DNA of 64,000 nucleotides from Paucibacter sp. DJ2R-2 (lineage in GTDB: Bacteria > Pseudomonadota > Gammaproteobacteria > Burkholderiales > Burkholderiaceae_C): positions 1,550,001 through 1,614,000 of the forward strand of contig NZ_JAJIRT010000001.1 in NCBI RefSeq assembly GCF_025717675.1. Reading direction: 5' to 3'. Made by a program: the position numbers and the translations under genes. A model generated the notes under the pieces. The model was not told where the DNA came from, searched no databases, and saw only the letters and a program-made list of their open reading frames with translations. Shown here in pieces: positions 45,503 through 61,328 of this stretch. How positions within the stretch are numbered: position 1 is the stretch's first letter; each line of letters opens with the position of its first letter.

Positions 45503-45540
45503 GGTCGGTCAGGTGATGTGGCGCTGTGGGGCTGGAGGGT

Positions 45541-45660
45541 TCAGGACGCAGAGGCCGCAAAGGAACGCAGAGCTCGCAAAGAGCGTTGAGGCAGGAACGA
45601 GCGCTGCCTCGGCGCCCTCGGCGTCACTCTGAGCGCTCTGCGTTCTGTTTCGGTGCGCTC
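45541..45660. repeat. Dispersed GACGCAGAG-type intergenic repeat, copy 1
   Basis: This gap between the binding-protein gene and livH holds CAGAGGCCGCAAAGGAACGC, which matches part of copy 2 at about 47857-47882. An 11-bp inverted repeat, GAACGCAGAGC (45563-45573) with GCTCTGCGTTC (45635-45645), could form a long-range hairpin. It does not code for protein. Confidence 0.65.
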
Positions 45661-45669
45661 AGGACCGCT

Positions 45670-46878: not shown

Positions 46879-46919
46879 GGACGGTCTCCTTCGTTGGAAT
46901 CGATCAATCGATCAAAAGC

Positions 46920-47639
46920 TCACACACTCAACAATTCGTCCAGCTTGGCCTGCTGCGCGGCCAGCTCGGAAGCGGGGAAAGACGCCACCACCTCGCCATG
47001 CTCGACGACGATGAAGTGGTCGGCCAGCGGCGCGGCAAAGCGGAAGTTCTGCTCCACCATGACGATGGTGAAGCCCTGGGCCTTGAGCGTGGTGATCATG
47101 CGCGCCAGGGCCTGCACGATCACCGGGGCCAGGCCTTCGGAGATCTCGTCCAGCAGCAGGATGTCGGCGCCGGTGCGCAGGATGCGGGCCACGGCCAGCA
47201 TCTGCTGCTCGCCACCCGAGAGCCGGGTGCCGGGGCTGTTCCGGCGCTCGGCCAGATTGGGGAACATCTCGTAGATCTGCGCCTCGGTCATGGGCGTCGC
47301 CCGGCCACCGCTGAGTCGCGGCGGCAGGCGCAGGTTCTCTTCGGTCGTCAGCGAGGCAAAGATGCCGCGCTCCTCCGGGCAGTAGCCCAGGCCCAGGTGG
47401 GCGATGCGGTGGGTGGGCAGGGCGATGGTTTCCTCGCCGTGCACGCGGATCGAACCCTGGCGCCGCCCGGTCAGGCCCATGATGGCGCGCAAGGTGGTGG
47501 TGCGGCCGGCGCCGTTGCGGCCCAGCAGGGTCAAGACCTGACCCCGCTGCACGGATAGATTGATGCCATGCAGGATGTGGCTCTCGCCATACCAGGCGTG
47601 AAGGTCGCGGATCTCCAGGGCAGACTCGATCGTGCTCAT
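46920..47639 (-). CDS. livF: Liv-type ABC ATPase (LivF) with Arg in Walker A
   Basis: This 239-residue ATPase has a LivF layout: ABC signature LSGGEQQML, Walker B ILLLDEISEGL and an H-loop-like MVEQN. The Walker A loop reads GRNGAGRTTT, with Arg46 where almost all ABC ATPases have the catalytic Lys. I recall LivF proteins with this variant in Burkholderiales, so it may be natural rather than a mutation. The paralogous LivF at 51958 keeps Lys. Confidence 0.85.
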   Translation of the reverse strand: MSTIESALEIRDLHAWYGESHILHGINLSVQRGQVLTLLGRNGAGRTTTLRAIMGLTGRRQGSIRVHGEETIALPTHRIAHLGLGYCPEERGIFASLTTEENLRLPPRLSGGRATPMTEAQIYEMFPNLAERRNSPGTRLSGGEQQMLAVARILRTGADILLLDEISEGLAPVIVQALARMITTLKAQGFTIVMVEQNFRFAAPLADHFIVVEHGEVVASFPASELAAQQAKLDELLSV

Positions 47640-47999
47640 GCCGCCACTCCTGTTTGAGCTGTGGCTGTCCTGGGCCCGTGAAACGGGCCGGGAGATCCTG
47701 AAAGCGAGAATGGACGCAGAGCCCGCAGAGGGAAAGCGCAGAGCTCGCGGAGGCAGTTCATCTCGACGCTCTCCGGAAGACGCTGCGAACTCGGCGCTCG
47801 CGTTTCAGCGCGTCCAAGGCGTCGGTCTGCGCTAGGCGCCAGCGAAGATACAGATCCGCAGAGGCCGCTAAGAGACGCAGAGAACGCCGAGAGAGCCAAG
47901 GCTGTAGCAGTGTTCTCTGCGCGCTCTGCGTCCCTCGGCTGTTGGCTCTGCGTCCGTACTTTGGATCCCGTCTTTTGAGGGTAATAAGGTGAAGACATC
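47640..47999. repeat. Repeat-rich 360-base gap (GACGCAGAG family, copy 2)
   Basis: This gap between livG and livF is filled with variants of GACGCAGAG and CTCTGCGTC in both orientations. Examples lie near 47711, 47735, 47876 and 47925-47960. One clear inverted pair is CGCAGAGAAC (47876-47885) with GTTCTCTGCG (47912-47921). The segment around 47857-47882 closely resembles copy 1. I see no gene in it. It is most likely a cluster of dispersed palindromic repeats. Confidence 0.65.
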
Positions 48000-48770
48000 T
48001 CAATGCGCCCCCTGCAACTCGGTCGCCTCGGTGCCCATATACGCCTCCAGCACGGCGGGGTGGCGCGAGACTTCGGCATAGTCGCCCTCGGCCAGCACCG
48101 AGCCGCGCGCCAGCACGGTGATGCGGTCGGCAATGGTGCTGACGACCTTCATATTGTGTTCAACCATCAAAACAGTACGGCCCTCGGCCACGCGTTTGAT
48201 CAGGGCGGTGACACGGTCCACATCCTCGTGGCCCATGCCCTGGGTCGGTTCGTCCAGCAGCATCAGCGCCGGCTCCATGGCCATGGTGGTGGCGATCTCG
48301 AGCGCGCGCTTGCGGCCGTAGGGCAGGTCGCCGGCCTTGAGGCTGGCCATCTCGCGCAGGTCCACCAGCTCCAGCAGGGCGAGCACGCGCGCGTCCAGCT
48401 GCTTCAGGCCGGTCAGGCCCTTCCAGAAATGGAAGCTGGTGCCGGTGAAACGCTGCAGGCCGATGCGCACGTTCTCCAGCACCGTCAGGTGCGGAAACAC
48501 CGCCGAGATCTGGAAGCTGCGGATCACGCCGCGCCGCGCGATTTCGGCCGGGCGCTCGCCGGTGATGTCCACCCCGTTGAACAGGATCTGGCCGCGCGTC
48601 GGTTCCAGGAACTTGGTCAGCAGATTGAAGCAGGTGGTCTTGCCCGCCCCGTTGGGGCCGATCAAGGCATGGATGGCGCCGCGCGCGACTTGCAGATTCA
48701 CCCCGTCCACGGCGGTGAAGCCCTTGAAGTCCTTGCCCAGACCTCGCGTTTCAAGAATCAGTTCGCTCAT
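48000..48770 (-). CDS. livG: Liv-type ABC transporter ATPase (LivG)
   Basis: This 256-residue ATPase has Walker A GPNGAGKTTCFNLL, a signature region LPYGRKRALEIATTM, Walker B LMLLDEPTQGM, and a C-terminal extension typical of LivG. It is the first gene of the first Liv-type operon on the minus strand, separated from livF by the repeat-filled gap. The 128-base gap upstream reaches the alpha/beta hydrolase of the next operon, so read-through from that operon is possible. Confidence 0.9.
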   Translation of the reverse strand: MSELILETRGLGKDFKGFTAVDGVNLQVARGAIHALIGPNGAGKTTCFNLLTKFLEPTRGQILFNGVDITGERPAEIARRGVIRSFQISAVFPHLTVLENVRIGLQRFTGTSFHFWKGLTGLKQLDARVLALLELVDLREMASLKAGDLPYGRKRALEIATTMAMEPALMLLDEPTQGMGHEDVDRVTALIKRVAEGRTVLMVEHNMKVVSTIADRITVLARGSVLAEGDYAEVSRHPAVLEAYMGTEATELQGAH

Positions 48771-48898
48771 CGTCAGACGTTCGCCGGTTCATTCAGGGTG
48801 GGGTCGATTCGAGCGTAGCAGCAGCGCATGTCCGCTGGTGCGTTGGCCGGTGCTGCTCTGCTGCGTAGATACCCGCGTGTTCGACCGTCTTGAGTCGT

Positions 48899-49750
48899 TC
48901 ATGCCTGTATCCCGTCGGCGCGCAGAAAGCGCTCCACCAGGTCCAGCTGCTCCGGCACATTGAGGGCCGGCGCATGGCCGCAGCCGGGGATGGTGACCAC
49001 GGCCGCGGCCGGGCCGCGCTCACGCATGGCCTGCACCGTGCTTTCCAGCAGCAGGTCGGAATGCTCGCCGCGCAGGCACAGAACCGGCAGGGCCAGGCTG
49101 TCCCAGGCGTCCCAGAGCAGGTAGTCATCCGGGTGGTGGGTGAACTGCAGGGCCATGGCCGGGTCGTAGTGCGGGGTGACCCGGCCGTCGGGCAGGCGGC
49201 GCACCGAGGTCTCGGTCAGCTGCCGCCACTGCGCGTCGCTGAGCCAGCCATAGGGCTTGTAGACGCTGCGGAAGTACTGCTCCAACTCGCTGACGGTGGC
49301 AAAGGCCGCCGGCTGGCCGGCATAGCTGCGGATGCGCTGCAGCGCTTCCTCGGCCAGCTGCGGGCCGTTGTCATTGAGAACCAGGCGGCGGATGCGGCCG
49401 CGCAGACGGGTGGCCGCCGCCAGCGTGCCGATGGCGCCGCCCATGGAGGTGCCAACCCAGTGGAATTCCTTCAGGCCCAGCTGGTCCACCAGGGCCGTGG
49501 CCTGTTGCACATAGAAAGCCAGGCAGTACTCGGTGGCCGGCGCCGGGCTCCACTCGGAGAGGCCGCGGCCCAGGGTGTCCGGGCAAATGACGCGGTAATG
49601 CGTGGACAGGTGGCGGGCCAGCTCGTCCATGTCGCGGCCGGTGCGGGCCAGGCCGTGCCAGGCGATCACGCATTCGCGGTGCTCGCTGCCCCATTCGGTG
49701 TAGTGCAGCTCGCGGCCTTCGCAGCGCAGGTAGTGGGAGCTGGGGTTCAT
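48899..49750 (-). CDS. Alpha/beta hydrolase
   Basis: This 283-residue cytoplasmic protein has an alpha/beta hydrolase fold, with nucleophile Ser102 in GTSMGG, an acidic residue near GEHSDLL, and a histidine in PGCGHAPAL. The oxyanion segment WHGLARTGRD follows strand 3. It is the last gene of the second Liv-type operon, overlapping the upstream permease stop by ATGA. That coupling strongly suggests it hydrolyses the imported compound, probably an ester, lactone or amide. It has no signal peptide. Confidence 0.85.
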   Translation of the reverse strand: MNPSSHYLRCEGRELHYTEWGSEHRECVIAWHGLARTGRDMDELARHLSTHYRVICPDTLGRGLSEWSPAPATEYCLAFYVQQATALVDQLGLKEFHWVGTSMGGAIGTLAAATRLRGRIRRLVLNDNGPQLAEEALQRIRSYAGQPAAFATVSELEQYFRSVYKPYGWLSDAQWRQLTETSVRRLPDGRVTPHYDPAMALQFTHHPDDYLLWDAWDSLALPVLCLRGEHSDLLLESTVQAMRERGPAAAVVTIPGCGHAPALNVPEQLDLVERFLRADGIQA

Positions 49751-50871
49751 GATGAGGACACCTCCGCCGATGTGGCTGTCTGCTTGTGAGCCCGCAGTGC
49801 CGCCGCAAGGCGCAGGCGCCCGACGATGCCGCTGGGGAAGTGGTACACGGCCAGCACGAAAAGAATGCCCAGCCAGAGCAGCCAGCGGTCCGGCGACACC
49901 AGCTGCGAGAGCAGGGGCACGCCCTGCAGCGCGCCTTCGCCCAGGCGCAGCAGGTCTTGCAGATAGTTCTGCGCCAGCACGAACACCAGGCTGCCCAGCA
50001 CCGCGCCGTAGATGGTGCCCATGCCGCCGATGACGACGATGAGCAGGATGTCCAGCATGATCTCGAAGGACATGGCCGTGTCCGGCCCGGCGTAGCGCAG
50101 CCAGATGGCGAGCAAGGCGCCGGCGCTGCTGGCGAACAGGGCGGCCAGCACATTCGACAAGGTGCGGTAGACGACGGTGCGGTAGCCGATGGCCTCGGCC
50201 CGGAACTCGTTCTCGCGGATGGCTTGCAGCACGCGGCCAAATGGCGAGTTGACGATGCGCAGCAGCAGCAGCACAAGGCCCAGCACGGCGAAGAACAGCA
50301 AGTAGTAGCTGAGCAGGCGGCCGTCGATCGTCACGCCCAGCAGCGGCTCTTCCAGGTACTCGGTCGAAGCTTGCAGGGCGGCGGGCAGCTTGAAGTTCAG
50401 GCCGTCCTCGCCGCCGGTGAAGTCGGAGAGCTGCGAGGCCAGGGTCAGAAAAGCCGAGGCCACGGCCAGGGTGATCATGGCGAAGAAGATCGCCTTCACG
50501 CGCAGGCTGAAGAGCCCGATTACCAGGCTCAGCAGCAGGGACAAGGCCAGGCCGGCCGCCCAGCCCGTGGCCAGCGCCGGCCAGCCCGCGCCCATGCGGC
50601 TGCTGGCGATGGCAATGCCGTAGGCGCCGATGCCGAAGAACATGGTGTGGGCAAAGCTGACGATGCCGGTGTAGCCCAGCAGCAGGTCGTAGCTGGCCAC
50701 CAGTACGATGAAGACCAGCACTTTCGCCGCGACATTGAGCGCCTTGGTCGAGGGGAAGATGAAGGGCAGCAGGGCCAGGCCCAGCACGCTCAGGCTCAGC
50801 AGCAGGGCCAGCCAGCGGCTGCGCGGCAGGTCGTGGGACAGGAGGTTCTTGAGGGAGAAGGAGGAATGCAT
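49747..50871 (-). CDS. Liv-type ABC permease (LivM), second operon
   Basis: This 374-residue permease has a longer N terminus than usual and the LivM signatures LLGYTGIVSFAHTMFFGIGAYG and AIRENEFRAEAIGYR. I start at ATG 50871 (MHSSFSLKNLL). The longer frame would run into livH in a different frame. It is 20 bases downstream of the LivH-type gene and overlaps the hydrolase gene, so the operon is tight. Confidence 0.9.
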   Translation of the reverse strand: MHSSFSLKNLLSHDLPRSRWLALLLSLSVLGLALLPFIFPSTKALNVAAKVLVFIVLVASYDLLLGYTGIVSFAHTMFFGIGAYGIAIASSRMGAGWPALATGWAAGLALSLLLSLVIGLFSLRVKAIFFAMITLAVASAFLTLASQLSDFTGGEDGLNFKLPAALQASTEYLEEPLLGVTIDGRLLSYYLLFFAVLGLVLLLLRIVNSPFGRVLQAIRENEFRAEAIGYRTVVYRTLSNVLAALFASSAGALLAIWLRYAGPDTAMSFEIMLDILLIVVIGGMGTIYGAVLGSLVFVLAQNYLQDLLRLGEGALQGVPLLSQLVSPDRWLLWLGILFVLAVYHFPSGIVGRLRLAAALRAHKQTATSAEVSSS

Positions 50872-50891
50872 GGCTTGAGGTCCCTGGCTGT

Positions 50892-51935
50892 TCAACGCTG
50901 ACCCAGCGGGTACAGGCCTTGCGGCCGCCACATCAACACCGCCACCATCAGGCCGATGTTGGAGAACAGGGCCAGCTTGGGCGCGAGGAAACCGGTGTAG
51001 TTGGCCAGCAGGCCGACCAGCAGGGCGCCGACCAGGCAGCCCACGGTGGAGCCCAGGCCGCCGATGATGATGACGATGAAGATCAGCACATTGACCTGTG
51101 CGCCGATCTGCGGCGTCACGCCTTGTTGGTACAGGCCCCACATCACGCCGCCCAGGCCGGCCAGGGCCGAGCCGCCGACGAAGACGGCGACAAAGAGGCG
51201 ACGCACGCGGTAGCCCAGGCTCTCGACCATCTCGCGGTCCTGCACGCCGGCGCGGATCAAGAGGCCCAGCTTGGTGCGGTTGAGCAGCCAGAGCAGGGCC
51301 AGCAGCACGGCCAAGCCAGTCAGCACGGCGACGATGCGGAACTTCTCCACCGCCGCCTCGCCCAGCAGCAGCGAGCCGCGCAAACCCTCGGGCAAGGGCA
51401 GGGGAATCATCTGCGCGCCCCAGACCACCTTGAGCAGCTCCTCGCCGATGATCATGCCGCCCATGGTGATGAGGATCTGCTTGAGGTGCAGGCCGTAGGC
51501 CGGCCGCACCAGCACGCGCTCGAACAGCAGGCCCACCGCGCCCGCCACCGCCATGCCGGCGCTGCAGGCCACGGCCACGGCGAAGAGATTGGCGCCCAGG
51601 TGAGGCGTCTCGGTGAAGCTGCTCATGGCGCCCAGCACCGTGGTGGCCATGAAGGCCCCGAGGGCGATGAAGACGCCGTGGCCGAAGTTCAGCACATCCA
51701 TCAGGCCGAACACCAGGGTCAGGCCCGAGGCGATGATGAAGATGATCAGGCCCATGGCCAGGCCGGCGATGGTCAGCGTCAGCCAGGTGCTGCCGCTGCC
51801 GACCAGGGGCAGGGCCAGCAGGGGCAGGGCGGCCAGCAGCCAGAGCGGCCGCATGTCGAAGCGGGCCTTGGGGATGGCCGCGGCGGCATCCGCCGCGGAA
51901 GGGAGGGTGCTCAGGGTCTCAGCTTGTGTGCTCAT
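50892..51935 (-). CDS. Liv-type ABC permease (LivH), second operon
   Basis: This 347-residue permease has the LivH signatures ASGLTLVFGLMDVLNFGHGVFI and IRAGVQDREMVESLGY. It has an extended N terminus of about 40 residues before the first helix. I start at ATG 51935 (MSTQAETLS); a start at 51950 would add five residues. Upstream is the LivF-type ATPase, 22 bases away. Confidence 0.9.
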   Translation of the reverse strand: MSTQAETLSTLPSAADAAAAIPKARFDMRPLWLLAALPLLALPLVGSGSTWLTLTIAGLAMGLIIFIIASGLTLVFGLMDVLNFGHGVFIALGAFMATTVLGAMSSFTETPHLGANLFAVAVACSAGMAVAGAVGLLFERVLVRPAYGLHLKQILITMGGMIIGEELLKVVWGAQMIPLPLPEGLRGSLLLGEAAVEKFRIVAVLTGLAVLLALLWLLNRTKLGLLIRAGVQDREMVESLGYRVRRLFVAVFVGGSALAGLGGVMWGLYQQGVTPQIGAQVNVLIFIVIIIGGLGSTVGCLVGALLVGLLANYTGFLAPKLALFSNIGLMVAVLMWRPQGLYPLGQR

Positions 51936-51957
51936 TCGGCCGGTCCTCATTTTTCTT

Positions 51958-52755
51958 TTACTGATGAGCCGCCAGGCTCAGGCCCAGCAGGCGCTGCTGC
52001 AGGGTCTCGTCCTCGGCCAAGGCCTGCATGGCGCCGGCGTGGACCACGCGACCGTTGTCCATCACCGCGACCCGGTCGCCCAGGGCGCGGGCGACCATGA
52101 AGTTCTGCTCGACCAGCAGCACGGTGGTCGGGGCCTGACCTTGCTCGCCGCCGCGCTTGAGCTCGCGCAGCGCCTCGATCAGGTTCAGGATGATGGCGGG
52201 CGCCAGGCCCTTGCTGGGCTCGTCGATCAGCAGCAGGCGGCGCGGCTCGATCAGAGCACGGGCGATGGCCAGCATCTGCTTTTGCCCGCCGCTGAGCTTG
52301 CCGGCCGGGTAGAGCCAGAACTTCTTGAGCGCGGGGAAATGGCCGAACAGCCAGTCCAGGCGCTGCCCATCCAGCTCGCTCAGGCGGCGCGCGGCGCGCG
52401 CGGCCAGCAGCAGGTTCTCGGCCACGCTGAGGTCGGCAAAGATGCCCATGTTCTCGGGCACATAGGCAATGCCGCGCTGGGCGATCTCGGGCGTTTGCGC
52501 CGGCTCGCGCGGGCTGCTGGCGCTGATGCGCTGGCCGTCGAAGTCGATGCGGCCCTGGCTGGCTTGCCACAAGCCCATGATGGTGCGCAGGGTGGTGCTC
52601 TTGCCCGCGCCATTGCGGCCCAGCAGCATGGTGACCTGGCCGGCCGGCACCTCCAGATCCACGCCGTGGAGGATGTGATACGCGCCGATGTGGGTGTGAA
52701 CGCCCTGCAAGGTCAGCAGCGATGGTGCGTTATGGTTGCTCGTGTTTGCATTCAT
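51958..52755 (-). CDS. Liv-type ABC ATPase (LivF), second operon
   Basis: This 265-residue ATPase has an intact Walker A GRNGAGKSTTLRTIMGL, the signature LSGGQKQMLAIARAL and Walker B LLLIDEPSKGLAPAI. In contrast to the first operon's LivF, the catalytic Lys is present. Its ATG overlaps the stop of the LivG-type gene (ATGA). Confidence 0.9.
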   Translation of the reverse strand: MNANTSNHNAPSLLTLQGVHTHIGAYHILHGVDLEVPAGQVTMLLGRNGAGKSTTLRTIMGLWQASQGRIDFDGQRISASSPREPAQTPEIAQRGIAYVPENMGIFADLSVAENLLLAARAARRLSELDGQRLDWLFGHFPALKKFWLYPAGKLSGGQKQMLAIARALIEPRRLLLIDEPSKGLAPAIILNLIEALRELKRGGEQGQAPTTVLLVEQNFMVARALGDRVAVMDNGRVVHAGAMQALAEDETLQQRLLGLSLAAHQ

Positions 52756-53525
52756 GTGCCGGCAGCCTCCATCTCAGCCACGGGCAGCGCCGCGCCGAGG
52801 TAGGCGTTCTGCACCACGGGCGAGGCGATCACGGCGGCCGGTTCGCCGTCGGCCACCAGCTGGCCGTTGTGCAAGACGATGATGCGGTCGGCCAGCTCGC
52901 GCACCACGTCCATCTTGTGCTCGACCAGCAGGATGGTGTGCTGGCCCTGGGCGTTCAGCTCGCGGATCAGGTCCAGCACCACGGGCACTTCGTCCACGCT
53001 CATGCCGGCGGTCGGCTCGTCAAACATATAGACCTTGGGTTGCAGGGCGATCAGCAGGGCCACTTCGAGCTTGCGCTGGTCGCCATGCGGCAGGCTGGCG
53101 GCGGTGGCCTGGGCGCGCGCTTGCAGCCGCACGCGCTCGACGATGGCCATGGCTTCGTCGATCAGGTCCTGGTGCTGCAGCCAGACCGAGAACATGCGCA
53201 GGCCCAGGCCGCGCCGTGCCTGCACGGCCAGGCGCACGTTCTCGAGCACGCTCAAATGCGGGAACAGCTGGGTCAGCTGAAAAGCCCGGCCCAGGCCCAG
53301 GCGGGTGCGGGCCGGCGCGGGCAGGTTGGTCAGGTCGAGGCCGTCCAGCCAGACGCTGCCGCTGCTGGCTTTCAGCTGGCCGGAGATCAAGTTGAAATAA
53401 GTGGTCTTCCCGGCGCCGTTGGGGCCGACGATGGCGGTGAGGGTGCCCGGTTGGAATTTGCAAGACACCCCGTCAACCGCTTTGTGGCCGCCGAAGTGGA
53501 TGGAGAGGTTCTTTGTTTCAAGCAC
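52752..53525 (-). CDS. Liv-type ABC ATPase (LivG), second operon
   Basis: This 257-residue ATPase has Walker A GPNGAGKTTYFNLISG, a signature variant LPHGDQRKLEVA and Walker B VYMFDEPTAGM. It starts with GTG at 53525 and has only a weak ribosome-binding site. The 421-base gap upstream to the binding-protein gene holds the large inverted repeat. Lower expression of the ATPase and permease genes than of the binding protein would be expected. Confidence 0.9.
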   Translation of the reverse strand: MLETKNLSIHFGGHKAVDGVSCKFQPGTLTAIVGPNGAGKTTYFNLISGQLKASSGSVWLDGLDLTNLPAPARTRLGLGRAFQLTQLFPHLSVLENVRLAVQARRGLGLRMFSVWLQHQDLIDEAMAIVERVRLQARAQATAASLPHGDQRKLEVALLIALQPKVYMFDEPTAGMSVDEVPVVLDLIRELNAQGQHTILLVEHKMDVVRELADRIIVLHNGQLVADGEPAAVIASPVVQNAYLGAALPVAEMEAAGT

Positions 53526-53551
53526 GGGTGCGTTCCACGTTTTTTGAGGTT

Positions 53552-53925
53552 AGAGCGCTGAATGCTCGGCTACTGCGCGGCTCCAGGCCGTCGTTGCGGG
53601 TCCTCCCACAGATCCTCACGTAGCGCTGCTACGCTCCGGTCTGTGGGTCCCCCCGCGCCTAGCCCAACGGCCGCTCGCTACGCCTCGCGCGCTAGCGATG
53701 CGCGTACCGAACGTCGGCGCTATCGTTGCTTTCGGCCCGTCCGTGTTTCATCGTTTGAGCTTCACGGGTTCGCCCCCTGTGCCAGCGCCCGAGGCGTAGC
53801 GAGCGGCTTCAGGACTAGGCGCGGGAGGACCCGAGAACCGGAACGTAGCGGCGCTACGTGAGGATTCGCGGGGGGACCCGCAACGACGGCCTGGAGTCGC
53901 GCAGTAGCCGAGCATCCGGCGCTCT
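53552..53925. repeat. Long inverted repeat: two 145-bp arms, about 86 percent identical
   Basis: The left arm (53552-53696) and the right arm (53781-53925) are reverse complements with about 21 mismatches in 145 bases and no gaps, around an 84-base spacer. Each arm also folds on itself. On the left, CCCACAGA (53605-53612) pairs with TCTGTGGG (53640-53647) around CGTAGC-GCT-GCTACG. On the right, the equivalent outer stem has different bases that still pair at seven of eight positions, around ACGTAGC-GGC-GCTACGT. It lies between the binding-protein gene and livG of the second operon and has no gene. Confidence 0.85.
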
Positions 53926-53946
53926 GGTTTCTACGGCTTCTACGAC

Positions 53947-55176
53947 TCAGCGCTGATTCCGAATCGGCACATTCATCTCTTCGGCTTTGATCTCTCGTAC
54001 GAGTTCCGGGACCCCCCACGCAAACGCCGGATCCACCTTGATCTTGAAGTGATACATCGCCTGCATCGCCTGATGATCCTCGGGTCTGAACGTCATCTTC
54101 CCTTTGGGTGTTTCAAAACTCATGCCTTCCATGGTCTTGATCAGCTTGTTGGTGCTGGTGTCACCGCCGGTCTTTTTGAGCGCCTCCACCACGGCGATGG
54201 CGGCCGTCATGCCGCCGGCGGTGAAGAAGTCGGGCGGCGCCTTGAACTGCTTGTAGTGGTTGGCGACCAGCCACTCGTTGACCGGGTTTTTGGGGATGCC
54301 GAAGTAGTAGTACGCAGCGCCCTCCATGCCGGGAAACTGCTTGTAGGCCGTCATGGCCGGCAGGATGTTGCCGCCGGTGGCGATCTCGATGCCATAACGC
54401 TTCAAGTCCAGGTCAGCGATCTTGAAGGGGTTGCCCGCGCCAGCCCAGAGGATGAAGACGACTTTGCGGCCGGGCTCGTTCTTGAGCTTGTCGATCAGGC
54501 GCTGGGCGCCGGCGGTGAAATCGGTGGTCGTCGTGGGCAGGTATTCCTCGTGGACGATGCGGGCCTTCTTGATCGCATCACGGAAGGCCTTCACGCCGTC
54601 GCGGCCGAAGGCGTAGTCCTGCGCCAGCGTGGCAATCGTGACGCCGGCTTTGTCCAGGGCCACGGCATTGGAGATCGCGTCTTGCGAGGAATTGCGGCCG
54701 GTGCGGAAGATGTATTTGTTCCACTTGTCGCCGGTGATGGAGTCGGCCACGGCCGGCTCGACCAGCAAGATCTTTTTGTACTCCTCGGCCACCGGCAGCA
54801 TGGCCAGGGCCACGCCCGAGGCAGTGGGGCCTACGGCCAGATCGGCCTTGTCGTCGCCATAGGCCGTGGCCAGCAGGTTCTTGCCCACATCGGGCTTGCC
54901 CTGGTCGTCTTTCTCGATCACCACGATCTTCTTGCCGCCCACCGTCATGGTGCCGCCGGTGGCGTAGTCCAGGCCCATCATGAAGCCGGTCTGGGTCTGC
55001 TTGCCGTAGGCCTCCAGTGGGCCGGTCTTGCTGTAGATCAGGGCGACGCGGACTTCGCCCGCTGCAGCTTGGGCGGCCATGGGCGCTGCCAAGGCCAAGG
55101 CCAGCCAGCTGCAAGCGCCGATCAGGGCCAGGCTCGCCGCGCGGCGGGGGATGAGGAATTGAGGGAGGGGGGGCAT
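53947..55176 (-). CDS. Liv-type ABC transporter substrate-binding protein, second operon
   Basis: This 409-residue periplasmic protein has a signal peptide (CSWLALALAAPMAAQA) and a type I binding fold: VRVALIYSKTGPLEAYGKQT, VVIEKDDQGKPDVGKNL and LAQDYAFGRDGVKAFRD. It is first in the operon, ahead of the large inverted repeat and livGFHM-like genes. A near-consensus sigma-54 promoter lies about 58 bases upstream of the start by predicted transcription start. The solute is unknown; the linked hydrolases suggest an ester or amide. Confidence 0.9.
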   Translation of the reverse strand: MPPLPQFLIPRRAASLALIGACSWLALALAAPMAAQAAAGEVRVALIYSKTGPLEAYGKQTQTGFMMGLDYATGGTMTVGGKKIVVIEKDDQGKPDVGKNLLATAYGDDKADLAVGPTASGVALAMLPVAEEYKKILLVEPAVADSITGDKWNKYIFRTGRNSSQDAISNAVALDKAGVTIATLAQDYAFGRDGVKAFRDAIKKARIVHEEYLPTTTTDFTAGAQRLIDKLKNEPGRKVVFILWAGAGNPFKIADLDLKRYGIEIATGGNILPAMTAYKQFPGMEGAAYYYFGIPKNPVNEWLVANHYKQFKAPPDFFTAGGMTAAIAVVEALKKTGGDTSTNKLIKTMEGMSFETPKGKMTFRPEDHQAMQAMYHFKIKVDPAFAWGVPELVREIKAEEMNVPIRNQR

Positions 55177-55244
55177 GATGAATCAGGTCTCCGGTTGTGG
55201 TGCGGCCTTGTTGGGTCTGCGCCCGGGCTTGGTGTCCATCATGG

Positions 55245-55260
55245 TGCAAGGCCCGTGCCT
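55245..55260 (-). promoter_or_regulatory. Sigma-54 promoter of the second Liv-type operon
   Basis: Read on the minus strand the site is AGGCACGGGCCTTGCA. It matches the TGGCACG-N4-TTGCA consensus at all but the first base, with exactly ten bases between GG at -24 and GC at -12. Transcription should start near 55234, about 58 bases before the binding-protein start codon. Confidence 0.75.
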
Positions 55261-55475
55261 GCGGCAGGCACTCCCCTGCTGCAGACCGCCCAAACTGGCG
55301 TAAACCCCGAGCTAGGAGGCGCCATAGGCCTCGCTGGAGCGCCCTACCATGGCCCGGCCCGCGGCTTGGCTGCTGAGGGGTCAGGTCTTGCCCGGCTCGG
55401 AAGCGGGGCCTGGGTCCAGTCACCTTGGCTGAAGCCTGGACAGGGGTGTATGAATTTCAAACAGCCATATGGAGC

Positions 55476-55492
55476 TGTCTGCTCTCCAGACA
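55476..55492. promoter_or_regulatory. Candidate activator box (TGTCTG-N5-CAGACA)
   Basis: A perfect 6-bp inverted repeat with a five-base centre lies about 230 bp upstream of the sigma-54 promoter and 47 bases before the serine hydrolase start. A related box, TGTCTG-N5-CAGGCG, lies at a similar distance from the TonB receptor promoter. I infer that it is the binding site of the sigma-54 activator encoded at 56710. Confidence 0.5.
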
Positions 55493-55538
55493 CAGCTTGG
55501 CTGTGCCGATGAGCGCAGCCGGGAACGAGGAGCCCACC

Positions 55539-56690
55539 ATGAACCCTTCACCGCAACGACGCCAGCTCTTGCAGACCGTGCTGGCCGCCGGAGGCCTGGG
55601 CCTGGCCGGCCGCGCAGGCGCCGCGCTGGCCCGCACCTCGCCCTCGGCCGCCGCCCTGGACCGCGTGGATGCCTACGCCCGGCAATGGCTGCGCGACCAG
55701 CAGATGCCCGGACTGGCCCTGGCCCTGCTGCAGGACGGTGAGCCCATCTACGCGCGCGGCCTGGGCTGGGCCGATGTGGGACAGCAGCGCCCGGTCACCG
55801 AAGACATGCGTTTTGCCATTTGTTCCATTTCCAAGCCTTTGCTGTGCTGCGCCGCGCAGTTGATGGTGGAAGACGGGCAGCTGCGCCTGGACCAGCGCCT
55901 GGCCGGTCTCTTCGACGGCCTGCCGTTGGCCTGGCAGGCCATCACCTTGCGCCAGCTGATGCAACACAGCTCGGGCCTGCCCAAGAACGTCGACTTCGGC
56001 GACCCCGAGGTGCAGGCCCTGTTTCCGCGCAACTACGGTGAGGCCGAATGGTTGCCCATCGTCATGCGCCAGCCCTTGCTGAGCCCGCCCGGCCAACGTT
56101 TCCTGTACAGCAATGTGGGCTACAACGTTCTGGCCAGCGCCATCGGCCGGCTGGCTGGCCGGCCCTATGAGCAGGTGCTGGCGCAGAAGCTGTTCGAACC
56201 CCTGGGCATGAAGAGCGCTCGCCTGATGCAGCCCGCTCCGGGCTTTGCCGACATGGCGGCCCCGCATCAGCGTGGGCCCGGCGGAGGGATCGTCGACATC
56301 GGCGCCCAGCAGCCGCCGGGCGTTCGCAGCTGGATGGCGGCCGGCTGCGGCGGCTTTGAAATGAACCTGCGGGACATGATTCAGTGGGAGCGCGCCCTGC
56401 AAGGTTGGGGGCCGTTCAAGCCCTATCGACGCGTGTTCGAGAAGCTCTGGGCCCAGGGCGTGCGCACCGACTCGGGCGACAGTTATGGCCTGGGCTGGAG
56501 TTTCAAGCGCGGCCCAGGCGGCCCGCTGCACTGCTGGCACGAGGGCCAAAGCGAGGGATTTTCGGCGCGCTTCGAGCGCTTCCCTGGCCAAGGCCGTGCC
56601 GTCGTGGCCCTGGGCAATCTGGGCGATTTCCAGCCCGCCGGGCTGAGTCGTGCGGTGCAGGATCTGGCCTGGAACCCCAGCTACCGTTGA
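55539..56690 (+). CDS. Tat-exported serine hydrolase (beta-lactamase/esterase fold)
   Basis: This 383-residue protein belongs to the class C beta-lactamase-like serine hydrolases, which include esterases, amidases and peptidases. The nucleophile is Ser96 with Lys99 (SISK), and the tyrosine is Tyr190 in YSN. HEGQSEGF probably supplies the third motif. The N terminus has a twin-arginine-like signal (PQRRQLLQTVLAAG), so it should be folded before export to the periplasm. ACGAGGAG is ideally placed before ATG 55539. It sits between the sigma-54-type operon and the activator gene, so it probably cleaves the same substrate outside the cytoplasm. Confidence 0.85.
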   Translation: MNPSPQRRQLLQTVLAAGGLGLAGRAGAALARTSPSAAALDRVDAYARQWLRDQQMPGLALALLQDGEPIYARGLGWADVGQQRPVTEDMRFAICSISKPLLCCAAQLMVEDGQLRLDQRLAGLFDGLPLAWQAITLRQLMQHSSGLPKNVDFGDPEVQALFPRNYGEAEWLPIVMRQPLLSPPGQRFLYSNVGYNVLASAIGRLAGRPYEQVLAQKLFEPLGMKSARLMQPAPGFADMAAPHQRGPGGGIVDIGAQQPPGVRSWMAAGCGGFEMNLRDMIQWERALQGWGPFKPYRRVFEKLWAQGVRTDSGDSYGLGWSFKRGPGGPLHCWHEGQSEGFSARFERFPGQGRAVVALGNLGDFQPAGLSRAVQDLAWNPSYR

Positions 56691-56709
56691 ACCCGCCGCG
56701 CCTGCTTCC

Positions 56710-58257
56710 TCATTCCTGCGTGAGCAGAGGCAGCTTGTCGTAGAGCGAGGCACGCGACATGCACAGCAGCTTGGCCGCGGCGAACTTGTTGCCGCCGGTG
56801 GCGCGCAAGGCGGCGCGCAGGGCGCTGCGTTCCAGCTCGGCGATCTGCTCGGCCAGGGGGCGCAGCAGGCTGGCGTCATCGGGGCCTTGGACCGGTGGGG
56901 CCGGCAGCGCCGGCGCCGGGCGCAGTTCACTGCCAGCGAGCGTCACGTTGCGGCCCGACGTACCTGTGGCACCTGTGGCACCTGTGGCGGGCTTCAGATA
57001 GGGCGCCAGCTGAGCGGCCTGCAGCAGCATTTCATCGCCCATCAGGCAGGCCAGTTCCAGGACATTGCGCAGCTCGCGGATATTGCCGGGCCAGTCCTGC
57101 TGCATCAGCAGCTCCAGCGCATCGGGCGCCAGGCTGCGCGAGGCCATGCCGGCGCGCCGCACGATGTCCTCCAGCAGGGCTTCGGCCAAGGCCTCGATGT
57201 CGTCCAGGCGCTCGCGCAAGGCCGGCACGCGCAGGGGCAGCACATTGAGGCGGTAGTACAGGTCGGCACGGAACTCGCCGGCCGCGACCATGGCGCCGAG
57301 GTCGCGGCTGGTGGCGGCGATCACGCGCACATCGACCGGGATCACGGTGTTGCTGCCCAGCGGCTCCACCTCCTGCTCCTGCAGCACGCGCAGCAGCTTG
57401 CTTTGCAGCGTGGTCGGCATGTCGCCGATTTCGTCCAGGAAGAGCGTGCCGCCGTCGGCCAGCTTGAACTTGCCTTCGCGGCCCTTGCGGTCGGCGCCGG
57501 TGTAGGCGCCGGGGGCGACGCCGAAGAACTCGGCCTCCAGCAAGGTGTCGGGCACGGCGGCGATATTGATGCTGACAAGGGGCTTGTGCGCGCGCCGCGA
57601 GGCGGCGTGGATGGCATGGGCCAGCAACTCCTTGCCGGTGCCGGTCTCGCCCAGCAGCAGCACGGTGGAGCTGCTCAGCGCGGCGCGGCGGGCCTGGCGT
57701 TTGACTTCCAGCGCGGGGGCGCTGCTGCCGATGAAACTGGCGATGGTGTGCTTGGAACGGCGGTTCTTGCTCTGCTCGGCGGCCAGCTGGCGGCGGGTGT
57801 CGTCCAGCTCCTGCTGCAGCCGGCCGAACTTGGAGATCAGCGGCTGCATGGTGGTTTCGGGGTGGTCCAGCAGCACCAGTCCGAGCGCGCCGATCACCTC
57901 GCCGGCCTCGTTGCGCAGCGGCAGGCGGGTCACCAGAAAGGTGCCGGCCCGGTTGGTCAGCAGGTCGATCAGCATCGGCTTGCCCGAGGCGATCACTTGC
58001 GGGATCAAGGTGTTGGGCACCACTTCCTCGACCGACCGGCCGACGAACTCCGTCTCGTCACCAAAACCCAGGGCCGGCAGAAAGCGCTTGTAGCCCTCGC
58101 TGATCCAGACGATGCGATGCGATCGGTCCACCACCATCATGCCCTCGGTGGCTTGGGCCAGCACATCGAACAAGGACTGCGCAGCCATGCGCAGCACGCC
58201 ATCGGCATCGGCGGGCAGTTCGGGGATCAGGGAGCTGGAGACGGGCACGGCGGGCAA
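56710..58257 (-). CDS. Sigma-54-dependent activator with PAS-like sensor domain
   Basis: This 515-residue activator has a PAS-like N-terminal domain (about 25-135), a short coiled linker, an AAA+ domain and a Fis-type helix-turn-helix. The AAA+ domain has Walker A GETGTGKE (203-210) and Walker [13 protein letters not shown]. The sigma-54 contact loop reads GAYTGA (250-255) instead of GAFTGA, a tolerated variant. There is no receiver domain, so it should sense a ligand directly, not a histidine kinase. It lies between two sigma-54-type promoters and is the best candidate to drive both. Confidence 0.95.
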
Positions 58258-58310
58258 AGGGCAGTGAGGCAGGAGTTAAAAAAACGGAAAGAGCGAGGGC
58301 CCGATCGACG

Positions 58311-58333
58311 GGGCTGCGTCAATGTAGCAGCCC
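58311..58333. terminator. Hairpin between TonB receptor and activator genes
   Basis: GGGCTGC and GCAGCCC form a 7-bp stem with a nine-base loop in the 133-base gap between two minus-strand genes. A run of seven T residues occurs about 30 bases further along the minus strand, not directly after the stem. It may attenuate read-through from the receptor gene into the activator gene. Confidence 0.4.
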
Positions 58334-58390
58334 TGTCCGGCACCCCCGCTCGGCCGGCGGCCTGTTCGAGGCCGCGGCGCATTGGCGTGT

Positions 58391-60658
58391 TTAGAACTTG
58401 TAGCCGACGCCCGCCGTGATGGTCCGCGGCGCGCCGTAAAAGCCGCTCAGCACGCCCAGCGAGGCGATGTTGTAGCCGTCCGTGCGGTAGGCCTTGTTGG
58501 CCAGATTGCTGCCTTGCAGGGAGAAGCTCAGGCGCTCGGTTTTCTCCCAGATCATGCCGGCCGAGACCAGGCCGTAGGCGTTCTGGGCGATCACCTCGCT
58601 GAGGTCGGTGGTCGGGTAGACCTTGGTGCGGTAGTTCAGGCCCAGGCGGGTCTTGAGCACGCCGCCCAGGGCCAGGCCGGTGCGGTACTCGATGTTCAGC
58701 GCGCCCTGGAATTTGGGCGTGTTGCTGAACTTCTTGTCCTTGGCCACGTTGACGCCGCGGTCGATGTACTCGTCGTACTTGGCGTTCACGTAGGCCACAT
58801 TGCCGCTGATGGACCAGGCCGAGTCGGGGCGCCAGGCAAATTCCACTTCCGCGCCCTGCACCGTGGCCTGGCCGGCGTTGGTGAAGTCACCGAAGAAGCT
58901 GGGCACGCCATTGGCGGCGGTGTAGGACGTGAAGATGGACAGCTGCACGTTCTTGTACTTGTTGTGGAAGACGGCGCTGTTGATCTCCAGGCGGCCGCCG
59001 TCGAGCACGGTCTTGGCGCCCAGCTCCAGCGAGTCCAGGGTTTCGTCGTTGAAGGGCTCGGCCGAACGCGGCACGGCCGTGGCTTGGGCGCGCACGTTGT
59101 AGCCGCCCGATTTGAAGCCGCGCGAGGCACTGGCGTAGAGGTTGGTCGTGCCGCTGAGCTTGTAGTCCAGGGACAGCTTGGGCGCGGTGTTGCTGACTTC
59201 GCGGGTCTTGTCGAAGTCGGCCGTGGCGGCGGTCACCTGGCTGAAGGTGGCGTCCTTGAAGCCTTGGTTCAGCACGCGCGCGCGTTTGCTTTCCTTGGTG
59301 TAGCGCAGGCCGGTGCTGAGGCTGAAAGCCGGGCTCAGGCGCCAGCTCCAGTCGGCGTAGGCCGCCTTGCCCTTGGTGTAGACGGTGCCATTGGTGCTGC
59401 CGAAGAGCAGGTTGAAGAAGTTGTTCAGCACCGTGCCGCCGGCTTCGCCGTCGAACTGGTACAGGCCCAGCACGCCGGCGTGGCCGCTGCCGCTGTCGTA
59501 GCTGAACTGCAGCTCGTTGCTGGTCTGCTTGTCGGCATAACGGGCCAGCACATCGGCGGTCTTGGCGGGCAGGCCGTCGAAATCGATGCCGGTGTTGGTC
59601 AGGCCGCGGCGGTTGGCGTGGACGAACTTGGCCGTCCACTCGTTGGACAGGTTCAGCGTCGCCGTCAGCGAGTGGCCGCGCGTGTCGGTGCTGTTCTGGT
59701 TGGCCATGCCGGTGGCGATGTCGTAGTTGCTCTCCACCGGCGGGTTGGCGTTCAGGCGTTTGAAGCCGCGCATGCCGGACTCATCAAGCGCCCGGTCGGC
59801 GCTGAAGACCACGGTCAGCGGCAGGTCCTTGGCGTAGTAGCCCACGGTGGCGCGGGCGGCCGTGGTGTCCTGGTTGCTGACATCGCTGCCGTCCGTCAGG
59901 TTCTTGCCATAGCCTTCGCGGTTCAGGTTGGCCACGGCAAAGCGAGCGCGGATCTGGCCGTCGGCCGCCGAGCCGCCGACCGAACCCTTGAAATTGGCCT
60001 GACCGTAGTTGCCGGTTGAGAAGCTCAGCGAACCCTCGGTCGCTGTACCCAGCGGGCGCGACACATACTTGATGGCGCCGCCGATGGTGTTCTTGCCGTA
60101 GAGCGTGCCCTGCGGGCCGCGCAGCACTTCGATGCGCTGGACATCGAACACTTCCAGCAGCGCGCCCTGCGGCCGGGCCATATAGACATCGTCCAGGTAG
60201 ATGCCCACGCCTGGGTCTACGCCCCAGAGCGGGTCGGCCTGGCCGACGCCGCGGATGAAGGTGGTGATGGTCGAGTTGCTGCCGCGCGCGGCATACACGG
60301 TCAGGTTGGGCACCTGGCCTTGCAGGTCGCCGAGGTTCTTCACATTGAGCGTTTCCAGCGCCGTGGCGCTGAGGGCGGTCACGGCCACCGGCACATCACG
60401 CAGGGTTTCCTCGCGGCGGCGGGCGGTCACCTTCACGGCTTCGAGCTTGTTGGTGCTGGCTTCTGTTGCTGCTGCTGTGTCTGCCTTCGCAGCGTCCGCG
60501 CTGGTCTGCGCCTGGGCGCTCAGCGGCAAGGCGAACAGCGCGGCCATGGCCAGGCTCAGCGGCGAGAGGCGGATCTGGCCATGGGCTTGCTGCTCATGCA
60601 CGCTGCGGGTGCATGAGCTCTGGGTGGTCTTGGCGGTGGTGGTGGTGGTGAAGCGCAT
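58391..60658 (-). CDS. TonB-dependent outer-membrane receptor
   Basis: This 755-residue receptor has an export signal (LAMAALFALPLSAQAQ), a TonB box-like region, a plug domain (about 75-190: RREETLRDVPVAVTAL, IEVLRGPQGTLYGKNTIGG) and a C-terminal beta barrel ending in GVGYKF. The Phe-terminated last strand fits outer-membrane insertion. I start at ATG 60658, after GGAGACAAACCG; longer readings go through untranslated leader. The substrate is unknown and need not be iron. A sigma-54-type promoter lies upstream at 60855-60870. Confidence 0.95.
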   Translation of the reverse strand: MRFTTTTTAKTTQSSCTRSVHEQQAHGQIRLSPLSLAMAALFALPLSAQAQTSADAAKADTAAATEASTNKLEAVKVTARRREETLRDVPVAVTALSATALETLNVKNLGDLQGQVPNLTVYAARGSNSTITTFIRGVGQADPLWGVDPGVGIYLDDVYMARPQGALLEVFDVQRIEVLRGPQGTLYGKNTIGGAIKYVSRPLGTATEGSLSFSTGNYGQANFKGSVGGSAADGQIRARFAVANLNREGYGKNLTDGSDVSNQDTTAARATVGYYAKDLPLTVVFSADRALDESGMRGFKRLNANPPVESNYDIATGMANQNSTDTRGHSLTATLNLSNEWTAKFVHANRRGLTNTGIDFDGLPAKTADVLARYADKQTSNELQFSYDSGSGHAGVLGLYQFDGEAGGTVLNNFFNLLFGSTNGTVYTKGKAAYADWSWRLSPAFSLSTGLRYTKESKRARVLNQGFKDATFSQVTAATADFDKTREVSNTAPKLSLDYKLSGTTNLYASASRGFKSGGYNVRAQATAVPRSAEPFNDETLDSLELGAKTVLDGGRLEINSAVFHNKYKNVQLSIFTSYTAANGVPSFFGDFTNAGQATVQGAEVEFAWRPDSAWSISGNVAYVNAKYDEYIDRGVNVAKDKKFSNTPKFQGALNIEYRTGLALGGVLKTRLGLNYRTKVYPTTDLSEVIAQNAYGLVSAGMIWEKTERLSFSLQGSNLANKAYRTDGYNIASLGVLSGFYGAPRTITAGVGYKF

Positions 60659-60854
60659 CGGTTTGTCTCCGTGGGGTGGCTTGCTTGCTTTTGATCTAGG
60701 TCTGGCTGCTGCAGCTGAAAAAAGTAAGAAGGGGCTGCCGTGCTCTTGCTGGCTCGGCTCGCCTGGTACTTGTTGCTCCTTGCCGTCGAATGAATCGAAC
60801 GGTGGCTCGATCCAGGAACCCAAGGACCAATCGGGTGCAGCGACCCCCTGCTTC

Positions 60855-60870
60855 TGCAATAGCTGTGCCC
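60855..60870 (-). promoter_or_regulatory. Sigma-54 promoter of the TonB receptor gene
   Basis: On the minus strand the site reads GGGCACAGCTATTGCA, against the TGGCAC-N5-TTGCA consensus. Only the first base differs, and the -24 to -12 spacing is exact. Transcription should start near 60844, which gives a 5' leader of about 186 bases before ATG 60658. Confidence 0.7.
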
Positions 60871-61063
60871 ACGAAGCGTGCACGGCTCCCAGACTGGTGC
60901 AAACCACTAGGCCACCGCCCCTTCCGCCTCCCGGCTGGGCCGCGGCGCGCATGGTTTTGGGGCGAACCGGGGCGCAAACGCTGCGGAAGGCGGGAGATTT
61001 TGCGCAAACGGCGGCGAGTTGTGTCACCGATGACTGAGTTTCAGGCAGTTCTGTGTGCCGGAG

Positions 61064-61080
61064 TGTCTGAAAAACAGGCG
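61064..61080. promoter_or_regulatory. Candidate activator box (TGTCTG-N5-CAGGCG)
   Basis: This site shares the left half and four of six right-half bases with the box at 55476-55492. It lies about 210 bp upstream of the receptor's sigma-54 promoter, close to the distance seen in the other promoter. It could be the activator's upstream site. Confidence 0.4.
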
Positions 61081-61213
61081 GTGGATGATGTTTGGACGGA
61101 GTGTTGCGCGCCATGCGCTCGCGCTCCTCCTGAAGCACCAAGTGAGCCTCATACAATTTCGCGCGAGACAAAAAGCAGCAGCAGGTCGCTTGAATCTGCA
61201 GAACAAGCAAGAA

Positions 61214-61233
61214 GACATGACGTCGATCATGTC
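61214..61233. promoter_or_regulatory. Inverted repeat upstream of the second PEP-CTERM gene
   Basis: GACATGA and TCATGTC form a perfect 7-bp inverted repeat with a six-base centre, 96 bases before the PEP-CTERM start codon. It is a candidate operator. No second copy was seen in the window. Confidence 0.4.
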
Positions 61234-61328
61234 CAGCTTGTCGCCGGGCACTTTGTGAAAGCGAGTGCAGATCTATGAGGGGCTCGCACAGTGGGGTGCT
61301 AGAGCCATGCAGAGGGAGTTGAAGAGGG

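Follow-up and report, generated by a model that had tools for sequence, protein, structure and literature searches.

The locus

The present work concerns a gene cluster of Paucibacter sp. DJ2R-2 that occupies positions 48899-61080 of an analysed stretch of 64 kb (the window), and in which a sigma-54 activator gene lies together with the genes of a Liv-type importer, an alpha/beta hydrolase (ABH), a Tat-type serine hydrolase and a TonB-dependent receptor. An earlier note had read these genes as one inducible sigma-54 pathway that imports and splits a specific ester, lactone or amide. Here, we compare the cluster with its counterparts in related genomes. We will show that the importer operon and the receptor gene carry the same operator-like palindrome upstream of their -24/-12 promoters, and we propose that the regulon quite probably serves the uptake and splitting of 3-hydroxybutyrate (3HB) oligomers. 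These are soluble fragments of polyhydroxybutyrate (PHB), the well-known natural biodegradable storage polyester.

The features of the cluster, with domains assigned by Pfam and NCBIfam profile scores, are the following:

48899..49750, minus strand: alpha/beta hydrolase (ABH), Abhydrolase_1 82.6 bits; final gene of the conserved operon
49747..50871, minus strand: LivM-type permease, BPD_transp_2 111 bits
50892..51935, minus strand: LivH-type permease, BPD_transp_2 127 bits
51958..52755, minus strand: LivF-type ATPase, ABC_tran 107 bits
52752..53525, minus strand: LivG-type ATPase, ABC_tran 97 bits
53947..55176, minus strand: LivK-type periplasmic binding protein, Peripla_BP_6 174 bits
55245..55260, minus strand: -24/-12 promoter of the Liv operon, AGGCACGGGCCTTGCA; rank 1 in the window, conserved before LivK
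55426..55442: weak third operator-like site, 4 mismatches
55447..55463: candidate operator (activator site), 2 mismatches; highest operator score in the window, 25.3 bits
55476..55492: candidate operator (activator site), 2 mismatches; rank 5, 11.2 bits
55539..56690, plus strand: Tat-type beta-lactamase-fold serine hydrolase, PF00144 201.5 bits
56710..58257, minus strand: sigma-54 activator (enhancer-binding protein), Sigma54_activat and HTH_8; HbcR type, as judged by tree and neighbours
58391..60658, minus strand: TonB-dependent receptor, Plug 67.8 bits, TonB_dep_Rec_b-barrel 131.7 bits
60855..60870, minus strand: -24/-12 promoter of the receptor gene, GGGCACAGCTATTGCA; counterpart before each of 7 receptor genes
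61031..61047: candidate operator (activator site), 2 mismatches; rank 2, 22.5 bits
61064..61080: candidate operator (activator site), 3 mismatches; rank 3, 19.1 bits

All genes named in the earlier note were found with the expected Pfam domains, and both promoters it had pointed to are present, each one base off the short sigma-54 consensus TGGCAC-N5-TTGCW. With the longer consensus TGGCACG-N4-TTGCW, the Liv promoter is one base off and the receptor promoter two. The importer (49747-55176, minus strand) has five parts in one operon, namely a binding protein, two BPD_transp_2 permeases and two ATPases. The receptor gene probably starts at the ATG at 60658, although its open reading frame opens at 61441.

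The known structures nearest to LivK are 3n0x (580 bits) and 3nnd (554 bits). By their titles, the three papers found to mention either identifier deal with other subjects than its ligand, and 3N0X does not occur in PMC3223731. For ABH, the nearest solved chains are 3bwx and 4ose. No RNA family matched up to an E value of 0.1 in 47600-61400.

Conservation in relatives

The activator was searched for in 99 whole genomes, its own and those of 98 relatives. There are 28 close matches, the window included (at least 590 bits), and then a gap to the next ones (at most 434 bits). The 27 other neighbourhoods were fetched, and the window proteins were mapped onto each of them. The activator followed by LivK, LivG, LivF, LivH and LivM, with occasional intervening genes, is found in 23 of the 27 relatives, and thus in 24 of 28 loci with the window, so the link between activator and transporter that the earlier note relied on has been kept. 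The Liv set is missing beside the activator in L052, where a 3HB-oligomer hydrolase follows, and in L062, a 10-kb contig with other genes; it is also missing in L053 and L054, where under 2 kb of contig is left downstream.

Of the two hydrolases that had been joined to the transporter in that proposal, one keeps its place and the other does not. ABH is present in 20 of the 23 relatives with LivK by the activator (21 of 24 with the window), being cut by the end of the fetched stretch in L045 and L058. It was not seen in L047, L048 and L063, where a 3HB-oligomer hydrolase comes after LivM and the fetched stretch ends no more than about 1 kb further on. The Tat-type hydrolase, on the other hand, occurs in only three of the 28 loci (the window, L039 and L040), all three in genomes that have the receptor. 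Its gene shares the divergent intergenic region with LivK. The distance from its start at 55539 to the closest operator is 46 bases, and between the operators and this start no -24/-12 match with a score of at least 8.5 was found. Its membership in the regulon is therefore not supported and we regard it as a neighbour, with a periplasmic step as a possible role. As to its nature, it scores 60.2 bits against the class C beta-lactamase model NF033085 (cut-off 415), and only the broad fold PF00144 is reached. In Paraburkholderia caledonica, a distant relative (27%) is found at about 1.2 kb from the activator.

A shared operator

When the loci were aligned by the -24/-12 site before LivK, a palindrome TGTCTGA-N3-TCAGACA emerged upstream of it, up to three times per locus. 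With no more than 3 mismatches allowed, the palindrome is found 33 times in the 23 LivK upstream regions (5,980 bases), compared to 0.5 times as predicted from its density over all fetched loci, the LivK upstream regions included. The operator and the -24/-12 site form a pair before LivK in 22 of the 23 relatives, the sites of L045 being more diverged. At the same level the 64 kb contain five palindromes: two upstream of the Liv promoter (55447 and 55476), two upstream of the receptor promoter (61031 and 61064) and a stray one at 19568. The 5.8 Mb genome contains 81 such places, versus 44 for a reversed control; at up to 2 mismatches there are 10, and three of these are in this cluster.

Because the palindrome was first read from a set that included the window, the operator and promoter matrices were retrained on 22 regions, leaving out both the window and L039, its near twin. 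The top three window matches of this operator matrix are 55447, 61031 and 61064, with the stray site fourth and 55476 fifth.

The promoters are less distinctive when judged by consensus alone, and are then not above chance in the window. A scan allowing 2 mismatches gave 12 matches, while 18.8 were expected from shuffles; in the whole genome, at up to 1 mismatch, there are 83 matches versus 28 for the reversed pattern, about threefold. Since the consensus scans by themselves stay at chance level in the window, they were set aside in favour of the relatives. With the promoter matrix from the 22 relatives, the LivK site comes first in the window at 22.4 bits, against a maximum of 22.1 over 40 simulated windows. 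The receptor promoter comes fifth; about 8 simulated matches per window equal its score, which is not significant on its own. For random 400-base stretches the 95th percentile is 10.95; across the relatives, the LivK site exceeds this value at 21 of 23 loci and stays below it in L044 (10.6) and L041 (9.0). It is thus conservation, together with the shared operator, that lifts both promoters above chance.

Other short elements were seen near the promoters. Both have the element GGTTTRCRCCAG, which precedes the -24 sites (55260 and 60870) by 36-47 bases and resembles GTGTTTRCACC, which occurs about 25 bases upstream of -24 in L045-L048 and L051. The latter type was not found in the L055-L065 loci, 9 of 10 of which have an IHF-like AATCAANNNNTTR about 18 bases upstream of -24 (0 or 1 mismatch).

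Further targets in the own genome were considered by inspecting 15 operator places (all 10 at 2 mismatches and 5 at 3), which gave two additional operator and -24/-12 pairs. One of them, L082, sits within a coding frame of the opposite strand and was rejected. The other, L084 (C34:98151), is a weak pair, with an operator of 2 mismatches, before a P-loop GTPase gene (G3E/CobW look, by eye); it is unlikely to be a third target, because its -24 half lacks the GG pair.

The receptor gene

We now turn to the receptor. At an E value of at most 1e-120 it is found in 7 of the 99 genomes, the own one included, and all 7 have the activator. The association has a Fisher p of 8e-5 over the 99 genomes and of 0.003 within the family, in both cases uncorrected for kinship. 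In five cases the receptor gene is inside the cluster (the window and the fetched stretches L039, L041, L043 and L050), while in G044 it is on another contig than the activator and in G024 about 112 kb away. In these two genomes, the receptor gene nevertheless keeps an operator with 1 mismatch and a -24/-12 site (15.0 and 13.4, respectively) at similar spacing. All 7 receptor genes have a -24/-12-like site and at least one operator-like site (up to 4 mismatches) upstream, the weakest in L043. As far as sequence can tell, these upstream sites are the best evidence that receptor and importer would form one regulon.

It is conceivable that the receptor is an iron-siderophore receptor that has come to lie here by chance, and that the activator governs the Liv operon only. 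The best NCBIfam match, the siderophore-receptor subfamily TIGR01783, points in this direction, although its 145.1 bits fall under the cut-off of 223.5. The receptor -24/-12 site, which is not significant when taken by itself, points the same way. However, the operator-like sites recur at all 7 receptor genes, two of which are far from the activator, no receptor without the activator was found in the 99 genomes at E 1e-120, and in L050 and L258 the receptor gene adjoins a 3HB dehydrogenase gene. We consider a chance neighbour very improbable. The idea of one sigma-54 regulon that joins the receptor with the Liv operon and its ABH is thus supported, by the shared operator and by the relatives.

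The activator and its kin

HbcR (PA2005) of Pseudomonas, reportedly described by Lundgren, Harris et al. in 2015, is said to be RpoN-dependent and to regulate (R)-3-hydroxybutyrate catabolism. The activator of the window has Pfam scores of 223.7 bits for the sigma-54 interaction domain, 72.9 for the AAA lid and 36.1 for the Fis-type HTH. The loop motif of sigma-54 enhancer-binding proteins is GAFTGA; in the alignment, it reads GAYTGA in the window and GAFTGA in L050 and L061.

Named organisms were also scanned for the activator, and the 64 comparison loci below were taken from among the matches listed. In the tree of 30 activators (midpoint root), the window falls in a proteobacterial group of 22 rows with a support of 100/99, which includes activators of Pseudomonas, Paraburkholderia, Bradyrhizobium, Devosia, Tamilnaduibacter and others. 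Eight of the ten group loci (L095-L103 and L118; L100 is counted here although it is outside the tree) have a 3HB dehydrogenase, an acetoacetyl-CoA synthetase or a 3-ketoacid CoA-transferase at an identity of at least 45%. The count becomes six of eight when L118 and L099, from which the queries came, are left aside. The same enzymes at this identity are found in 1 of 64 loci of other activators among the matches listed. In L096, a GntP-like permease is the only one of the 3HB-catabolic neighbours, and in both Bradyrhizobium loci the activator and the CoA-transferase have a related Liv set next to them.

In P. fluorescens PfAR1 (L118; 49% identity), the group activator lies beside a 3HB dehydrogenase and an acetoacetyl-CoA synthetase. 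The permease next to it is presumably GntP-like; it has no Pfam match. We take this locus to have the make-up of the hbcR locus.

The substrate

The genes inserted into the cluster in relatives are informative about the substrate. A 3HB-oligomer hydrolase (PF10605; 1020 and 1038 bits for the two tested) comes after LivM, or directly after the activator in L052, where it has its own operator (3 mismatches) and -24/-12 site. It is present in 11 of the 28 activator genomes, in 9 of these 11 within the cluster. Six activator genomes have a type-2 extracellular polyhydroxyalkanoate (PHA) depolymerase that passes the cut-off (405 bits versus 280 in the one protein tested), and in 4 of them it is inserted between LivK and LivG; a tblastn match at 69% points to another in the Burkholderiales PBB3 metagenome-assembled genome (L112). 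The gene order in L050 is LivM, ABH, 3HB dehydrogenase, receptor, and in L258 the dehydrogenase comes directly before the receptor; the two dehydrogenases score 301 and 297 bits, respectively, and pass the cut-off of 258. Other inserts are a carboxylesterase (L056) and an Abhydrolase_3 protein (L057). The own genome, too, encodes a 3HB dehydrogenase (C44:219997, 70%).

Considering these inserts together with the HbcR-type kin of the activator, we propose the uptake and splitting of 3HB oligomers. The more general suggestion of an imported ester, lactone or amide thereby stands and is narrowed, the L050 and L258 dehydrogenases pointing the same way, to what is most likely the 3HB oligomer.

A number of observations weigh against this assignment. 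No enzyme of PHB or 3HB metabolism belonging to a named family is encoded in the window, and its genome gave no match to the models of the 3HB-oligomer hydrolase and the type-2 PHA depolymerase, which do match relatives. The own 3HB dehydrogenase lies outside the cluster; no operator was found there, and its control by the activator was accordingly rejected. ABH itself is far under all specific NCBIfam cut-offs (best 69 bits versus 256), and the L050 and L258 dehydrogenases reach 299 and 301 bits in a second model, just short of its cut-off of 307. Within the family, a 3HB-oligomer hydrolase or type-2 depolymerase is present in 13 of 28 genomes with the activator and in 12 of 31 without it (p 0.60); as there is no genome-wide co-occurrence, physical linkage was used instead. 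Activator genomes have four such enzymes that are not in the cluster (G050 L178, G043 L194 and L204, G037 L216); no operator and -24/-12 pair was found at any of them, while the same rule gave weak pairs in L181, L199 and L212, which belong to genomes other than the 28. With regard to the activator, once the identity limit is lifted such matches also turn up in 5 of the 64 comparison loci (L105, L106, L109, L114 and L167), and the line between the groups is therefore not sharp; since L105, L106 and L109 are in the tree yet outside the group, the ketone-body neighbours may predate it. That the Pseudomonas relatives are HbcR appears likely from their neighbour genes. Finally, HbcR has a PAS domain at residues 17-123 according to the accessible part of PMC8694187, and Pfam finds none in the window activator, in which the alignment shows an N-terminal region of PAS-like length that is present and conserved.

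The same regulon could be devoted to another short hydroxy acid, keto acid or ester, such as acetoacetate, other polyester fragments or short plant esters, the link to PHB then being one of related chemistry. This would agree with the variety of the inserted hydrolases, which differ by lineage (3HB-oligomer hydrolase, PHA depolymerase, carboxylesterase, Abhydrolase_3), with the window having no PHB-specific hydrolase and with the PHB enzymes not being associated genome-wide with the activator. On the other hand, the commonest insert, the L050 and L258 dehydrogenases and the wider group of the activator all point to 3HB, and we judge another substrate to be rather unlikely.

Malonate was also considered, as the compound whose use the activator would control. 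A malonyl-CoA synthase gene (803.8 bits for the one tested, cut-off 558) is divergent from the activator, adjoining it or a few genes off, in 11 of the 27 loci (L040, L042, L044-L048 and L051-L054), and in some relatives a malonyl-CoA decarboxylase (2 loci) or a Bug-type binding protein (3 loci) is near the activator. However, no operator and -24/-12 pair was found towards the malonate genes, none of these lies beside the activator of the window, and neither synthase nor decarboxylase had a match among the 16 named loci examined. A malonate regulon is hence extremely improbable.

The contrast between genomes with and without the receptor gives an additional lead. The PF10605 hydrolase is found in none of the 7 receptor genomes and in 11 of the 21 receptor-less activator genomes (p 0.023, uncorrected for kinship or for several tables). 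The type-2 depolymerase shows no contrast (1 of 7 versus 5 of 21), and a count of genomes with either enzyme gives a p of 0.08. Because of the kinship among the seven receptor genomes, we take this as a lead rather than a proof.

Proposed mechanism

In the mechanism that we propose for 3HB oligomers, the HbcR-type activator (56710-58257) would sense 3HB or a short oligomer via its N-terminal region, and an activator oligomer on the paired TGTCTGA-N3-TCAGACA sites would open sigma-54 polymerase at the two promoters. The TonB receptor would then move oligomers through the outer membrane and the Liv-type system through the inner membrane, after which ABH, as an intracellular 3HB-oligomer or ester hydrolase, would cut them to 3HB in the cytoplasm. 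The Tat-type hydrolase, if it is a member at all, would cut some oligomers already in the periplasm. The 3HB dehydrogenase, encoded elsewhere in the genome, would finally yield acetoacetate. The shared operator, the conserved promoters and the gene linkage are seen directly in the sequences compared, while the inducer, the substrate, the direction of transport and every enzymatic step are what this scheme would assign.

The own genome has one borderline match to the type-1 depolymerase family (152.9 bits, cut-off 150), with a hydrophobic stretch near the N-terminus. As it lacks the tested secreted oligomer hydrolase and type-2 depolymerase families, the organism may live on fragments freed by others. 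A tentative extension, to which we give somewhat less than an even chance, is that the cluster is a polyester counterpart of carbohydrate-utilisation loci, in which the receptor imports whole PHB oligomers into the periplasm, the Tat-type hydrolase trims them in that compartment, the Liv importer and ABH finish the task and the activator senses 3HB, the whole replacing the secreted 3HB-oligomer hydrolase of sister lineages. With TonB import in place of a secreted hydrolase, the fragments would be kept from competitors.

Flanking and additional features

Two other features lie within or next to the operon:

53552..53925: giant inverted repeat in the LivK-LivG gap, 145-nt arms, 86% complementary
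43620..48770, minus strand: second Liv-type set, with LivG2 at 48000-48770, LivF2 at 46920-47639, binding protein at 45670-46878, LivH2 at 44615-45502 and LivM2 at 43620-44618

The LivK-LivG gap of 421 bases folds at -320 kcal/mol. The same double element is found at this place in L039, L044, L047 and L048, and single copies in L040, L041, L042, L046, L055 and L059. Elsewhere in the own genome, where 40 of 52 candidates were scored, there are 15 places with a single or partial copy. The repeat is REP-like, and may protect or limit the mRNA between the binding-protein and transporter genes.

The second Liv set is complete and follows ABH on the same strand after 128 bases; the operon possibly runs past 48899 into it as one transcription unit. 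The order LivG2, LivF2, binding protein after ABH is also seen in L039, L043 and L064, and in Devosia limi (L102) these three are found beside an HbcR-type activator and a 3HB dehydrogenase. Short direct and inverted repeats of the GACGCAGAG kind lie between LivG2 and LivF2, at 47713-47894 and 47915-47960.

On the other side of the cluster, divergent from the receptor promoter region, a gene at 61329-62087 encodes an Lcl_C-domain protein ending in VPEPTSALLMFGGLLALAAAVRRKSVLR, which we take to be a PEP-CTERM-like sorting signal. In 7 of the 27 relatives' loci (L041, L042, L044, L045, L047, L048 and L053) a Cache-domain chemoreceptor gene is near the activator, possibly for chemotaxis towards the same compound.

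Comparison with known systems

Among the closest known systems is that of HbcR in Pseudomonas, an activator of the same sigma-54 group by the tree, near 3HB-catabolic genes. According to the accessible parts of the sources, HbcR (PA2005) is an RpoN-dependent regulator of (R)-3-hydroxybutyrate catabolism (PMC8694187, PMC8657755, PMC13390443), and that of P. fluorescens responds to (R)-3HB (PMC10482368). Unlike in the HbcR locus, the neighbours of the activator in the window are the Liv-type importer, the TonB receptor and ABH. A 3HB dehydrogenase gene in the neighbourhood of the activator is absent from the window and present in L050 and L102. Another difference is that the Pseudomonas gaps L118 and L098 show no 17-mer palindrome of the TGTCTGA-N3-TCAGACA type.

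As for extracellular PHB degradation by PHA depolymerase (PhaZ) and 3HB-oligomer hydrolase (PhaY/3HBOH), some relatives carry one or both enzymes in the cluster, whereas the genome of the window lacks the two tested families and has the receptor and the Tat-type hydrolase instead. In the literature searched, subscription papers being mostly outside it, we found no description of how soluble PHB fragments pass both Gram-negative membranes, nor of the combination of genes seen here. The present proposal, if true, names for these fragments an outer-membrane receptor, an inner-membrane importer, an oligomer hydrolase, an activator and an operator, and the swap of a secreted hydrolase for TonB import would be one between public and private use of the polymer. 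The operator is in addition a ready tool for finding further parts in other genomes.

The importer has the same five-part make-up as the Liv/HAAT branched-chain amino-acid importers (COG0683 binding proteins), although its ligand is probably no amino acid; in the accessible part of PMC3223731, R. palustris binding proteins of the COG0683 group often bind ligands other than amino acids. TonB-dependent uptake of a non-iron carbon source is known for a lignin-derived aromatic (PMC6874591, as far as accessible). In both cases the receptor is tied to the catabolism of a carbon source, with the difference that the cargo proposed here is a polyester oligomer. Each part of the cluster, the activator included, is thus of a known kind, and what appears to be new, judging from the literature searched, is that an HbcR-type activator and one operator sequence link a Liv importer and a hydrolase to a TonB receptor.

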